A stretch of 64,000 nucleotides of DNA, from NCBI RefSeq assembly GCF_011759375.1, contig NZ_JAARML010000001.1, forward strand, positions 806,001 through 870,000. Reading direction: 5' to 3'. This DNA is from Paraflavitalea devenefica. Lineage in GTDB: Bacteria > Bacteroidota > Bacteroidia > Chitinophagales > Chitinophagaceae. The notes beneath the pieces were generated by a model. It saw only the letters and a list, made by a program, of their open reading frames with translations. It was not told the DNA's origin and did not search any database. Shown here in pieces: positions 54,752 to 57,517 of the stretch (position 1 is the stretch's first letter; every line of letters begins with the position of its first letter). Made by a program: the position numbers and the translations under genes.

Positions 54752-56197
54752 TTATTCTCCTTCGATCTCTCCTTTCTTCATCCATGGCTTAGGTGCCGCG
54801 CCATCCATTTTCACGATCTTAGGATAGAACAAACCGACAGTATCCACCAGGTGTTGCTGCGCATTCATTACAGTATAAATATCTTTATACGCATGTGGCG
54901 CCTCATCCAATCCACCACCGATGAGCTTAACCCCATGTTTGCTGAGCATTTCCTATAAGGCATGCCGTGTAATGGTATTCAGGGCTGCTGTTCTGCTCAT
55001 TTTTCTTCCGGCTCCATGCGATGCCGAATTAACAGAAGCCAGCTCACCTTTTCCTTTCACAATGAAGCCCGGCGCGGTCATAGACCCCGGAATAATACCC
55101 AATACGTCCTTACCTGCCGGTGTAGCTCCTTTTCTATGCACAATCACTTCCCGTCCCTGATACATTTCCCTCCAGGCGAAATTATGGTGGTTTTCTACCA
55201 TCTTCAGTGGTTGCCGCCCCAACTGCTTTGCAATTTTAGCATGGATCACATGATGGCAGGCACTTGCATAATCGCCGGCCAGGTTCATGGCCATCCAGTA
55301 TTCAATGCCTTCCTGCTCATCCATCGTTAGCCAGGCCAGGTTATTCGCTTCTCCCGGCAGCCGCCTTTTTTGTTTGGCCACTTTGGTATAGTGGTTGGCA
55401 ATATTGGCGCCCAATGCCCTGGAACCGGAATGCGTGAGCAATCCCAGGTAGGCTCCGGCTTCTATACCTAAAACAGGATCTTTCTCTTTAATCTCTACCA
55501 ACCCGAACTCAGCAAAATGGTTCCCGGAACCGGAAGATCCCAGTTGCTTTGCCGCCCTTCCCTGCAATGCTTTGAGCAAAGGCAGTTGATCAAACTCAGG
55601 ACGGTCAATCACTTCATGTTCTGTAGCATTGTCAAACTGCCGTCCTCCACCGAATAGGGTGGCTTCATTCAGCTCGCGGGTAAAATATGGCTCCCGTTGC
55701 ACCAGCTCTTTCGGATCTATATCGAATACAGATAAACACATCCGGCATCCGATGTCAACACCTACTCCGTATGGTATTACGGCATTCTCTGTAGCCAGTA
55801 CACCTCCAATAGGCAGTCCATATCCGGCGTGCGCATCGGGCATTAAGGCTCCTGCCAGCGATACCGGCAGTTTGGCTGCCTGGTACATCTGGTTCATCGC
55901 GCCGGGCTCAATGAACTCGCTGCCAAATACATTGAAAGATATACCTGTTGTGTTCAACGATATCTCCACACCTTCCGGCGCAGGCTTGGGCAATAGTTGT
56001 TGCGCCACGGGCGCCAGTACAGCATCTTCCATATAATCAGCCGGAGCAGTCAGTACGTCTTTCAAGATATCTATTGCCTGTTCGGTTGTATGATGTTTAT
56101 AGTTGCGCTCCATCACATTCATGGCAATGCTGATCACCGGGCCTTCCGGATAACCAATTACCCTTAAATCCTTTCCTTTTAATTTTAACTTTGCCAT
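54752..56197 (-). CDS. rtcB: RNA-splicing ligase RtcB, interrupted by an in-frame TAG
   Basis: RtcB joins 2',3'-cyclic phosphate and 5'-OH RNA ends with GTP and Mn2+. The reading frame starts at 56197 (MAKLKLKGKDLRVIGYPEGP). Motifs: PYGVGVDIGCRM (Mn Cys), SGSGNHFAEFG, THSGSRALG, NHHNFAW, and NSASHGAGRKMSR with the guanylylated His near 402. A TAG at 54955-54953 follows TRHAL, and the same frame continues after GAA with ATG (54949) through LIGGGLDEAPHAYKDI to the natural end (FYPKIVKMDG). The 66-residue tail includes conserved GTP-site residues, so the gene is either broken, read through, or expressed as two pieces. Downstream of the tRNA array on the same strand. Confidence 0.85.
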
Positions 56198-56284
56198 ACT
56201 TCTTGGTTTTCAATAATCAGTTAACTGTGAACCTTCTATTCTCAATTTACCGAATTCATTTCGTGTCAGGTCAAACCGTTTTAG

Positions 56285-56356
56285 TGGACAAAACAGGATT
56301 CGAACCTGTACACACCCGGCTTCAACGGGCTGCTCTACCATTGGAGCTATTTGTCC
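56285..56356 (-). tRNA. tRNA-Phe (GAA)
   Basis: 72 nt. Acceptor GGACAAA/TTTGTCC, D-stem GCTC/GAGC, anticodon stem GCCCG/CGGGT with loop TTGAAGC, T-arm ACAGG TTCGAAT CCTGT, discriminator A. CCA is not encoded. Last tRNA of the array, 87 bases upstream of rtcB. Confidence 0.92.
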
Positions 56357-56360
56357 TTTG

Positions 56361-56431
56361 AGGGAACAGGATGATTCGAACATCCGTCTTTCCGTTAACA
56401 GCGGAGCGTTCTGCCATTGAACTATATTCCC
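56361..56431 (-). tRNA. tRNA-Asn (GTT), with U73
   Basis: 71 nt. Acceptor GGGAATA/TGTTCCC with one G-U, D-stem GTTC/GAAC, anticodon loop CTGTTAA, anticodon stem closed by a C-A mismatch, T-arm GGATG TTCGAAT CATCC. The discriminator is T where bacterial tRNA-Asn normally has G. Only 4 bases separate it from tRNA-Phe. Confidence 0.88.
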
Positions 56432-56441
56432 TTTGTCGATG

Positions 56442-56512
56442 ACGGCTTAAGAAGATTCGAACTTCTATCTGTACGTTCGTAGCGTACTATTCTTCCTTTG
56501 AACTATAAGCGG
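56442..56512 (-). tRNA. tRNA-Arg (ACG), with acceptor mismatch and U73
   Basis: 71 nt. Acceptor CCGCTTA/TAAGCCG has a C-C mismatch at pair 2-71. D-stem GTTC/GAAT, perfect anticodon stem GTACG/CGTAC with loop CTACGAA, T-arm AGAAG TTCGAAT CTTCT. Discriminator T. Confidence 0.85.
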
Positions 56513-56515
56513 TTG

Positions 56516-56587
56516 GTTGTCTTTGGGCCTCGAACCCTGTTCTCCTCATTCACAGTGAGGTATTTTACCAGTTAAACTAAAGACAAC
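56516..56587 (-). tRNA. tRNA-His (GTG), with shortened T-stem
   Basis: 72 nt including an encoded G at -1 opposite C73, the histidine identity pair. Acceptor TTGTCTT/AAGACAA, anticodon stem CCTCA/TGAGG with loop CTGTGAA. The T-arm reads AGGG TTCGAGG CCCA, two bases short, leaving only three G-C pairs. Confidence 0.85.
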
Positions 56588-56593
56588 GTTTTG

Positions 56594-56666
56594 TTACCGG
56601 GCTCAGATTCGAACTGAGAACATCACAGTCAAAGTGTGATATGTTAGCCGGTTACACTATCCGGTA
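56594..56666 (-). tRNA. tRNA-Gln (TTG)
   Basis: 73 nt. Acceptor TACCGGA/CCCGGTA with U1-A72, the weak pair preferred by GlnRS, and an A-C mismatch at 7-66. D-stem GTGT/ACAT, anticodon stem TCACA/TGTGA with loop CTTTGAC, T-arm CTCAG TTCGAAT CTGAG, discriminator A. Confidence 0.88.
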
Positions 56667-56669
56667 AAG

Positions 56670-56743
56670 TTGGCCCGGTGAGAATCGAACTCACAACCCC
56701 GGGAGTAAAAGTCCCTTACTCTGCCTGTTTGAGCTACGAGCCA
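56670..56743 (-). tRNA. tRNA-Lys (TTT)
   Basis: 74 nt. Acceptor TGGCTCG/CGGGCCA, D-stem GCTC/GAGT, anticodon loop CTTTTAC on stem AGGGA/TCCCG (outer A-G mismatch), T-arm GTGAG TTCGATT CTCAC, discriminator A. Three bases before tRNA-Gln. Confidence 0.92.
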
Positions 56744-56755
56744 ATATGGTTTCTG

Positions 56756-56828
56756 TTGGCCTGCCGGGACTTGAACCCGGAGCTTCCTGCGTATAAGGCA
56801 GTTACTCTAACCATTGAGTTACAGGCCA
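56756..56828 (-). tRNA. tRNA-Ile (TAT)
   Basis: 73 nt. Perfect acceptor TGGCCTG/CAGGCCA, D-stem ACTC/GAGT, anticodon loop CTTATAC on stem ACTGC/GCAGG (outer A-G mismatch), T-arm CCGGG TTCAAGT CCCGG, discriminator A. The UAU anticodon is rare in bacteria, which usually read AUA with a lysidine-modified CAU tRNA. First tRNA of the array. Confidence 0.92.
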
Positions 56829-56843
56829 GGATGGTTTTGGAAA

Positions 56844-56876
56844 AGTAGCCTCCCGCAGCATCGCGGGAGAACTACT
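56844..56876 (-). terminator. Hairpin between the third small ORF and the tRNA array (weak terminator or processing site)
   Basis: On the reverse strand CTCCCGC/GCGGGAG (7 bp, six-base loop) is extended by AGTAG/CTACT across a small internal loop. It is followed by TTTTCC, a weak U-run. It starts 27 bases after the stop of the small ORF at 56904-57041 and lies 15 bases before tRNA-Ile. Confidence 0.5.
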
Positions 56877-56903
56877 GTATCCTCCTTTCTGCACATAACA
56901 TGT

Positions 56904-57041
56904 TTACCGCAACTCAAATTCTGCCGGGTGCTGTATTTTACCCGTTCCTTTTTTGCTTATGGCTTTATTCTTTCCGGTCTTTTTTCCTGTTATCAGTTCC
57001 ATGATCAACCGGATTGTTAAAACAGCCATCACCAGTTTCAT
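56904..57041 (-). CDS. Small basic ORF 3 upstream of the tRNA array, 45 residues
   Basis: Starts MKLVMAVLTIRLIMEL, a short hydrophobic N-terminus, followed by a Lys-rich tail (KKTGKNKAISKKGTGK). It has eight Lys and three ATA codons. AAAGGAGG at 57054-57047 lies 5 bases before the ATG, a strong Shine-Dalgarno site, unusual in Bacteroidota. The same CAGAAAGGAGG word recurs after the stop (56891-56881) without a start codon. Could be a leader peptide or a small membrane-active protein. Confidence 0.45.
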   Translation of the reverse strand: MKLVMAVLTIRLIMELITGKKTGKNKAISKKGTGKIQHPAEFELR

Positions 57042-57077
57042 AATTACCTCCTTTCTGTGTTGCTTATACGGGACAAC

Positions 57078-57107
57078 AAAAAACCCGGTCATTGAATGGA
57101 CCGGGTT
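57078..57107 (-). terminator. Rho-independent terminator 2 in the tRNA/rtcB leader
   Basis: Reverse strand: AACCCGGTC and GACCGGGTT form a 9-bp stem with an 8-base loop, followed by TTTTGTTG. It begins 24 bases after the stop of small ORF 2. Confidence 0.8.
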
Positions 57108-57131
57108 CTGTATGTTTCACAACACAGCTTA

Positions 57132-57290
57132 TCACTGTACTGGAATAGACTCCGGTCGTTTATGTATATGTTCCTGATCCATGCGTTTGGCATTTGTAAA
57201 GCGTCTGGTTATGGCACAGGAAGACCCTGCAGGCAGTGTATGCTCAACTGCCAGTGCCATCAACCGTATGGATTGTATTGTTTTCAGCAT
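57132..57290 (-). CDS. Small ORF 2 (candidate leader peptide), 52 residues
   Basis: Starts MLKTIQSIRLMALAVEH and ends HKRPESIPVQ. It opens immediately after the U-run of terminator 1 and closes 24 bases before terminator 2. Four of its five Ile codons are the rare ATA. It contains codons for all seven array tRNA types. GACCGG in its codons 45-47 (57157-57152) is complementary to CCGGTC in the 5' arm of terminator 2. Confidence 0.4.
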   Translation of the reverse strand: MLKTIQSIRLMALAVEHTLPAGSSCAITRRFTNAKRMDQEHIHKRPESIPVQ

Positions 57291-57301
57291 GGATTAAAAA
57301 C

Positions 57302-57328
57302 AAAAAACCCCGCTTCAGGCGGGGCTTT
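57302..57328 (-). terminator. Rho-independent terminator 1 in the tRNA/rtcB leader
   Basis: Reverse strand: AAAGCCCCGC and GCGGGGTTTT form a 10-bp stem with a 5-base loop, followed by TTTTTTGTTTTT. It begins 25 bases after the stop of small ORF 1. Confidence 0.85.
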
Positions 57329-57386
57329 CGTTGTATCTAGGTTTCGTAGCTCTCTACAAATTACCAGGCAACATGATACGCCCCGC
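57319..57386 (-). promoter_or_regulatory. Candidate antiterminator pairing within ORF 1 and terminator 1
   Basis: GCGGGGC at 57386-57380 and GCCCCGC at 57325-57319 give 7 G-C pairs that exclude the terminator 1 stem. The order stall codons, antiterminator strand, stop codon, terminator is that of ribosome-mediated attenuators. A matching six-base pairing exists for terminator 2 (57157-57152 with 57104-57099). Confidence 0.45.
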
Positions 57387-57455
57387 ACTCATGATATAAT
57401 CCTCACTGGGATTAAACCATTTCGCTGTTTCAATATGCATCTGTATGCGTAACAT
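57354..57455 (-). CDS. Small ORF 1 (candidate leader peptide), 33 residues
   Basis: Starts MLRIQMHIETAKWFN. Its codons 3-15 contain CGC, ATA, CAG, CAT, AAA, TTT and AAT, one cognate codon for each of the seven tRNAs of the array. GCGGGGC in codons 24-26 (57386-57380) is complementary to GCCCCGC of the 5' arm of terminator 1. The ATG lies about 25 bases after the predicted transcription start. Confidence 0.5.
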   Translation of the reverse strand: MLRIQMHIETAKWFNPSEDYIMSAGRIMLPGNL

Positions 57456-57485
57456 GTTCTTCTGTTTAAAATTTTATTGACGATG

Positions 57486-57517
57486 CAAAGGTGTAATTAT
57501 TTTTTTATTCGCGCCAA
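57486..57517 (-). promoter_or_regulatory. Predicted promoter of the leader / tRNA array / rtcB transcript
   Basis: Reverse strand: TTG at 57517-57515, 21-base spacer, CACCTTTG at 57493-57486, one mismatch from TAnnTTTG. Start predicted near 57479. A perfect 18-base palindrome CTGAAAAATATTTTTCAG (57524-57541) lies just upstream; it may end the regulator gene or be an operator. Confidence 0.45.

Follow-up and report, generated by a model that had tools for sequence, protein, structure and literature searches.

Locus structure

The window analyzed here is a 64,000-nucleotide stretch of the Paraflavitalea devenefica genome (contig NZ_JAARML010000001.1), and between its positions 54,752 and 57,517 lies a unit ending in rtcB, which encodes an RNA ligase. 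Sequence reading, ARAGORN, and Rfam place a predicted promoter, small open reading frames (ORFs), hairpins, tRNA genes, and rtcB all on the minus strand. An earlier note, made from the letters of this DNA alone, had listed the same parts (promoter, ORFs, terminators, hairpin, seven tRNAs, and rtcB, on the reverse strand), and each is present as it described; the spacing between tRNAs, which it gave as 3 to 12 bases, is 2 to 11 by ARAGORN. The small ORFs and hairpins look like a regulatory part that the note overlooked. We propose, with a probability of roughly two in three, that this is a unit of spare tRNAs and RNA repair whose expression is likely controlled through ribosome-mediated transcription attenuation at two leader peptides. 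The features are as follows, where L031 to L034 are the loci of four other genomes in the genus of the window.

57486..57517, minus: predicted Bacteroidota sigma-type promoter (TTG ... TTTG); aligned element in L031 to L034 and others
57354..57455, minus: ORF1, putative leader peptide 1, 33 amino acids (aa), MLRIQMHIETAKWFNPSEDYIMSAGRIMLPGNL; kept in L031 to L034
57379..57387, minus: predicted antiterminator strand 1 (TGCGGGGCG), within ORF1; complementary to the 5' arm of terminator 1
57302..57328, minus: intrinsic terminator 1 (GCCCCGC..GCGGGG plus T run); equivalent position in L031 to L034
57132..57290, minus: ORF2, putative leader peptide 2, 52 aa; a leader 2 is present in 32 of 40 loci
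57148..57158, minus: predicted antiterminator strand 2 (CGACCGGAGTC), within ORF2; complementary to the 5' arm of terminator 2
57078..57107, minus: intrinsic terminator 2 (AACCCGGTC..GACCGGGTT plus T run), read from the sequence
56904..57041, minus: ORF3, 45 aa, with its own Shine-Dalgarno-like GGAGG; six-sequence alignment
56841..56876, minus: third hairpin plus T run; the matching stretch in L032 directly precedes the DinB gene
56755..56828, minus: tRNA-Ile(UAU), ARAGORN; Rfam 68.3 bits
56669..56743, minus: tRNA-Lys(UUU), 64% identical to the same-anticodon housekeeping tRNA
56593..56666, minus: tRNA-Gln(UUG), 65% by the same comparison
56515..56587, minus: tRNA-His(GUG), 59%
56441..56512, minus: tRNA-Arg(ACG), 59%
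56360..56431, minus: tRNA-Asn(GUU), 53%
56284..56356, minus: tRNA-Phe(GAA), 64%
54752..56197, minus: rtcB (RNA ligase), Pfam RtcB E 2e-68, with an in-frame TAG at 54955-54953

By eye, the predicted promoter resembles the main Bacteroidota type. Judged from their sequences, ORF1 and ORF2 resemble the leader peptides of attenuators, here in tandem. The earlier note had read all three small ORFs, each with its hairpin, as alike modules, and this description suits the leader-like ORF1 and ORF2 but not ORF3, a conserved 45-aa protein. ORF3 has a hydrophobic N terminus and a conserved HPAEF-like end, is seen in the five other units of the six-sequence alignment, and has no PADLOC match. Since the third hairpin, moreover, lies before DinB in relatives such as L032, we rejected the idea of three equivalent modules.

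The seven array tRNAs score 47.9 to 68.3 bits against the Rfam model, and six of them are 53 to 65% identical to the housekeeping tRNAs with the same anticodon. The 38 housekeeping tRNAs read from the window genome, an incomplete list, include no match for the seventh, Ile-UAU; a UAU anticodon on tRNA-Ile is uncommon in bacteria. On these sequences, the array tRNAs look like an old separate lineage, not recent copies. A by-eye comparison gave no clear sign of nuclease-resistant anticodon loops in the window array, and PADLOC returned only short, weak ATPase-core matches on the unit. ARAGORN with a cutoff lowered for degenerate tRNAs yielded mostly noise and was not used.

Recurrence of the unit in relatives

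All five genomes of the genus carry an equivalent leader upstream of tRNAs and rtcB, with 5 to 10 tRNAs identified in each of the four relatives. The arrangement in the window is not a product of chance, because its leader part aligns with the four other genus genomes, all of which have tRNAs upstream of rtcB. More widely, a search of relatives found an RtcB match in 41 of 99 genomes. Among the 40 loci fetched, rtcB is preceded by at least two tRNAs on its own strand in 7 (four from the genus, plus L035, L044, and L054) and by a single one at L048; the linkage is therefore common in one RtcB clade, not general. In a record-titled scan of at least 560 relatives, some of whose genomes overlap the earlier set, we took the best 80 RtcB loci. 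Conservation of the array-rtcB linkage, which the earlier note had offered as a check on its own reading, holds in five of five genus genomes and in 26 of these best 80 titled loci (at least two tRNAs within the upstream 8 kb), including loci of Niastella, Lacibacter, Ferruginibacter, and Flavitalea. Full units are present in Niastella caeni (L130), Lacibacter luteus (L127), and Ferruginibacter paludis (L159).

A gene for slipin (Band_7) is matched in 64 of 294 family genomes, and 40 such loci were fetched, which are among the best scoring of the 64 and not a random sample. Same-strand tRNAs upstream of slipin number at least two in 26 of these loci, one in 4, and none in 10, and an RtcB match follows slipin within the fetched stretch in 25 of 40. 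The fuller order in the family is leader, tRNAs (up to 18), AAA ATPase, slipin, and RtcB, with parts often absent; Ro60-like, AAA, and slipin genes occur in many of these units. Arrays are also present in other families of the order (L054, L196, L198, L199, L205, and L210), and the G082 family gave one slipin locus in 6 genomes.

Leader codons and array tRNAs

Architecture was the first criterion for choosing leaders, and inspection by eye the second. The rule itself required an upstream TTTG, and the presence of a TTTG promoter at other loci is thus partly by construction. A leader of about 30 aa, after a TTTG-type promoter and before a terminator, was found in 41 of 49 loci (the window, 8 rtcB loci, and 40 slipin loci); none was found at L095, L097, L103, L105, L112, or at L079, L081, and L086, which lie at contig ends. 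The start of the L080 leader was read as GTG, and at L054 a leader selected by eye was assigned a longer sensor. We propose codons 2 to 22 of ORF1 as the sensor region. Codons 2 to 17 keep their amino acids better than codons 18 to 33 do, in a comparison of four sequences with small numbers.

In the window, leader 1 codons decode 7 of the 7 array isoacceptors (P = 0.0086), and L031 (genome G003) and L033 (genome G004) each reach 10/10. Our main set comprised the 26 loci whose arrays hold four or more tRNAs. There, leader 1 codons decode 200 of 212 array isoacceptors, compared with 116.6 for random coding windows (standard deviation [SD], 6.3; maximum, 141 in 5,000); without L054 the count is 190/202 against about 110 expected. 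Leader 2 codons decode 163 of 177, with 131.9 expected (SD, 4.9; maximum, 148 in 2,000).

A hold-out set was drawn from 17 titled loci, with L214 added. Its 8 countable loci have 43 of 56 isoacceptors covered, against 28.5 expected (SD, 3.2; maximum, 39). Among the candidates, no leader was found at L139, L149, L191, L194, or L195. Left out of the count were L141, which has only a leader 2-like ORF (13/13 covered); L143 and L159, which have only unlike ORFs (4/9 and 3/9); and L151 and L154, which have fewer than three isoacceptors (2/2 each).

Coverage was also compared with that of shuffled loci. When arrays were shuffled among 32 loci (CAU excluded), the observed coverage of 233/249 exceeded the shuffled mean of 208.1 (SD, 3.9; P = 5e-5). 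With one locus per genus (20 loci, titled loci being counted as separate genera), coverage was 137.5/150.2 against 124.2, and the median P was 0.002, the lowest value that 500 shuffles allow. Certain codons show some tuning to the arrays. A Trp codon is present in the leader at 11/11 loci with tRNA-Trp and 9/21 without; a Tyr codon is present at 6/6 loci with tRNA-Tyr and 18/26 without; and AUA is present at 15/15 loci whose array has Ile-UAU. Where the leader has Arg, Arg(UCG) is matched by CGG in 2/2 cases, Arg(UCU) by AGA or AGG in 2/2, and Arg(ACG) in 19/20.

Predicted terminator and antiterminator pairing

Within the window, the computed duplex between antiterminator 1 and the 5' arm of terminator 1 (-16.4 kcal/mol) compares with -15.4 kcal/mol for the terminator hairpin; the equivalent duplex for terminator 2 is -12.5 kcal/mol. 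The best partner of the terminator 1 5' arm lies at codon 21 to 24 in 39 of 41 leaders, and 36 of the 41 pair well enough to rank in the top 5% against codon shuffles. The antiterminator and the terminator arm change together at L090, L100, L106, and L110, and the arms covary in five of seven Chitinophaga loci run (L171, L176, L178, L182, and L189).

We also modeled folding with a ribosome either stalled early in the leader (codon 5, 8, or 12) or standing at the stop codon. In the stalled cases, pairing with the antiterminator segment takes up most of the emerging 5' arm in 39/40 loci; with the ribosome at the stop codon this pairing is dominant in 0/40. Counting any upstream pairing of the 5' arm, the figures are 40/40 stalled and 1/40 at the stop. 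As a separate observation, the spacer from the leader 1 stop to terminator 1 shares a CGAATTC stretch at L076, L085, L087, and L091.

These results bear on the reading that ORF1 to ORF3 are ordinary small proteins and the terminators merely gene separators, with no attenuation. ORF3 does resemble a structural small protein, and the first half of ORF1 is conserved as a protein. Protein-level conservation is poor in the second half of ORF1, however, and ordinary proteins would leave unexplained both the antiterminator complementarity at a fixed place, covarying with the terminator arm at several loci, and the excess of array codons in the two leaders. We regard this reading as very unlikely.

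Counterevidence and a general stress response

Several observations weigh against attenuation by leaders matched to their arrays. Pairing is weak or mismatched at L035, L048, L054, L094, L107, L111, and L115 (mismatched specifically at L035, L094, L111, and L115), and L107 fails the antiterminator test. L110, one of the covarying cases, falls outside the best 5% of shuffles, and five leader 2 antiterminator calls lie far from the usual position. The L054 ORF, at 92 aa, runs through its own terminator, unlike other leaders. L191, L194, and L195 have no leader by the rule used despite having tRNAs beside RtcB. At equilibrium the terminator is still favored on average with a stalled ribosome (0.60 to 0.78, versus 0.94 with the ribosome at the stop), and the window terminator itself stands at 0.86 to 0.91 when stalled. 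The switch would therefore have to work by kinetic trapping; switching in classical attenuators is kinetic.

On the codon side, coverage is 77% in the hold-out set and 94% in the first set. Met-CAU, Gly-UCC, Cys-GCA, and Leu are often uncovered by the leader, and many leader codons have no matching array tRNA at their own locus. Similarity between leaders is not matched by similarity between their arrays (Mantel r = 0.058, P = 0.22; partial r = 0.047, P = 0.27); among nearest pairs, 13 are concordant, 3 are discordant, and 82 have a changed array with an unchanged leader. Leaders also stand at loci without ARAGORN tRNAs (L090, L102, L106, L109, and L113, plus Chitinophaga loci). Given the missing covariation, we read the leader as a broad sensor that stays largely fixed and is tuned to some degree. 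A fair statement of the sequence data would be that arrays draw on the amino acid set of a conserved leader, with some tuning for Trp, Tyr, and Arg isoacceptors, and that leaders are not rebuilt for each array.

A nearly fixed leader beside varying arrays, and its persistence where no tRNAs are detected, would suit a general translation stress switch, in which leaders answer any slow ribosome (for example, under ribosome-targeting antibiotics), their match to the array being of secondary importance. A precedent is found in Anabaena, where a normally silent 26-tRNA trn operon is repressed, along with rtcB, by the shared repressor TrcR and is induced by translation-targeting antibiotics (PMC10272220). 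Such a switch does not predict that array isoacceptors in the leader should exceed both random windows and shuffled loci, one locus per genus included, or that Arg codons should track the isoacceptor at most loci. We consider it unlikely, if the strongest of the alternatives.

Proposed attenuation mechanism

In the attenuation that we favor, the order of parts read from the sequence is leader ORF 1, terminator 1, leader ORF 2, terminator 2, tRNA array, and repair genes, an order kept in the genus and, in modified form, across the family. Each window leader holds a segment computed to be complementary to the 5' arm of the next terminator. While charged tRNAs are plentiful, the ribosome would reach the stop codon and block pairing of this segment, and the terminator would form. 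Were a matching tRNA cut or uncharged, the ribosome would stall upstream, the segment would trap the emerging 5' arm, and transcription would continue. The divergent array tRNAs could then replace the lost species, and in relatives with an intact set RtcB may reseal the cut RNAs, aided by AAA, slipin, or Ro60-like proteins. The window strain would keep the leader and tRNAs, with the repair half impaired.

Because leader codons match the array, the leaders would sense tRNA loss directly. We lean modestly toward a stronger form of this proposal, a tRNA inventory sensor in which one peptide lists nearly the whole tRNA reserve and any loss causes a stall that releases the reserve and the RNA ligase, twice in series. 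If so, the unit would form a feedback loop, as the sensed molecules are the ones made. Decoding of the leader would then be a second, protein-free route of sensing tRNA cutting, attenuation would be widened from single amino acids to a whole tRNA panel, and a purpose would be suggested for some silent tRNA arrays. The proposal predicts that swapping a leader codon abolishes the signal for that codon.

Comparison with known systems

Attenuators of the trp and his type combine a short leader ORF carrying regulatory codons, a mutually exclusive antiterminator and terminator, and an upstream promoter. The present unit has a leader ORF with putative regulatory codons, an exclusive antiterminator/terminator pair (predicted), and a predicted upstream promoter. 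Where those attenuators list a single amino acid, the leaders here carry codons for about ten; they also come as two in series, and the genes under control would be for tRNAs and RNA repair rather than biosynthesis. A literature search of partial coverage found no description of an attenuated tRNA array with rtcB. Burroughs and Aravind (2016) reportedly may describe parts of such units.

In its combination of a tRNA array, rtcB, AAA, and slipin, the unit resembles the TrcR regulon of Anabaena; AAA ATPase and slipin genes are among those raised in a trcR mutant, and the authors propose that TrcR is probably degraded via an unknown pathway (PMC10272220). The Anabaena loci are unlinked and under a protein repressor, whereas those studied here are linked and apparently attenuated; the terms "leader peptide," "attenuat," and "terminator" are absent from the text on Anabaena (PMC10272220). 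In Salmonella, the rtcBA operon is induced by tRNA fragments, which are bound by RtcR (PMC7790460). Similarities to the rsr-yrlBA-rtcBA RNA repair operon are a Ro60-like protein together with RtcB at some loci and, if our reading holds, a response to broken tRNAs. That operon has RtcR, RtcA, and sigma-54 (PMC7790460). In the present unit the signal would be lost tRNA function and not protein-bound tRNA fragments, and the RtcA family (PF01137) was found in 0/7 genomes here, in a search whose control was positive in 5/14 known genomes, including Escherichia coli. No leader peptide is described in the passages on the Anabaena and Salmonella systems (PMC10272220 and PMC7790460). Dense tRNA gene clusters are shared with bacterial and phage tRNA arrays; the recurring partnership with a leader and repair genes sets the present unit apart from those arrays (for example, PMC5966550 and PMC6409571).

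Gene loss, origin, and side observations

The earlier note had found no other gene between the parts. This is true of the window, but relatives carry three genes within that stretch. All four genus relatives have a 357-aa AAA ATPase between the tRNAs and rtcB; DinB matches almost in full in three of them and as two fragments in the fourth; and two of the four also carry a TROVE/Ro60-like gene. Aligned to L032, the window shows gaps in turn at TROVE, at DinB together with one tRNA, and at AAA, and by this comparison the window copy has lost all three genes. A search of the rest of the window genome turned up neither AAA nor TROVE, but it was run without a positive control, and such an empty result shows little. 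The array and rtcB were rejected as natural neighbors in the genus, since AAA intervenes in four relatives and is lost in the window.

The note also placed rtcB at the end of the unit, where it is indeed present, though not as one open frame reaching 54752. The gene is open to codon 414, and codon 415 is TAG (54955-54953, minus strand); it is the sole rtcB match in the window genome. In the four genus relatives the RtcB match runs over 482 aa with no stop. Compared with L032, the 66 codons past the TAG have 25 silent and 5 replacement differences, a mix similar to the 156:47 before it. Codons past the TAG thus look as constrained as those before, which would fit a recent mutation, a mistake in the assembly, or a stop that is read through. 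With its rtcB frame interrupted and three genes gone, the window strain has a doubtful repair half. The earlier note's idea of a tRNA-damage response that both replaces and repairs tRNAs is partly supported: the linkage of a divergent array with RtcB is conserved, and repair in this strain is the weaker point. The note's further suggestion that the unit acts against anticodon nucleases, phage, or toxins gained no support from the PADLOC matches or the anticodon loops.

Such erosion might suggest a domesticated phage-type tRNA array with RtcB, decaying and without a function of its own. DinB and AAA are broken in relatives too (L034 and L044), and distant RtcB relatives occur in 645 of 50,697 phage records, all below 60% identity, with ten listed at 32 to 36%. 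Decay is at odds with the recurrence of the order of parts over many genera and with the Rfam scores that the window tRNAs still reach, and a plasmid origin, also considered, found no near match among 72,556 plasmid records, which likewise speaks against a decaying array. This is the least probable of the explanations weighed, and an attenuated spare-tRNA and repair unit remains our preferred account.

The TROVE-type protein of L032 has TROVE plus vWA_Ro60 domains (Pfam) and scores 36 bits, far below the Rsr equivalog cutoff of 900. TROVE relatives occur at L033, L050, L052, L121, L126, L143, and L157.

The window genome carries the leader device a second time, upstream of slipin (L090; G000:C2:1235000-1245300). 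ARAGORN finds no tRNAs there, and Rfam gives one weak 31-bit match. In Chitinophaga (L171, L176, L178, L182, and L189), a leader and a different terminator sequence stand upstream of AAA and RtcB, with no tRNA array there. Three Flavobacteriales metagenome-assembled genomes have slipin, then tRNAs, then RtcB (L194, 7094-8001; L195, 7424-8001; L191, 7346-8001), perhaps an independent assembly of equivalent parts. At L205 and L210, from another family of the order, arrays flank slipin on both sides, with 15 tRNAs in L210.

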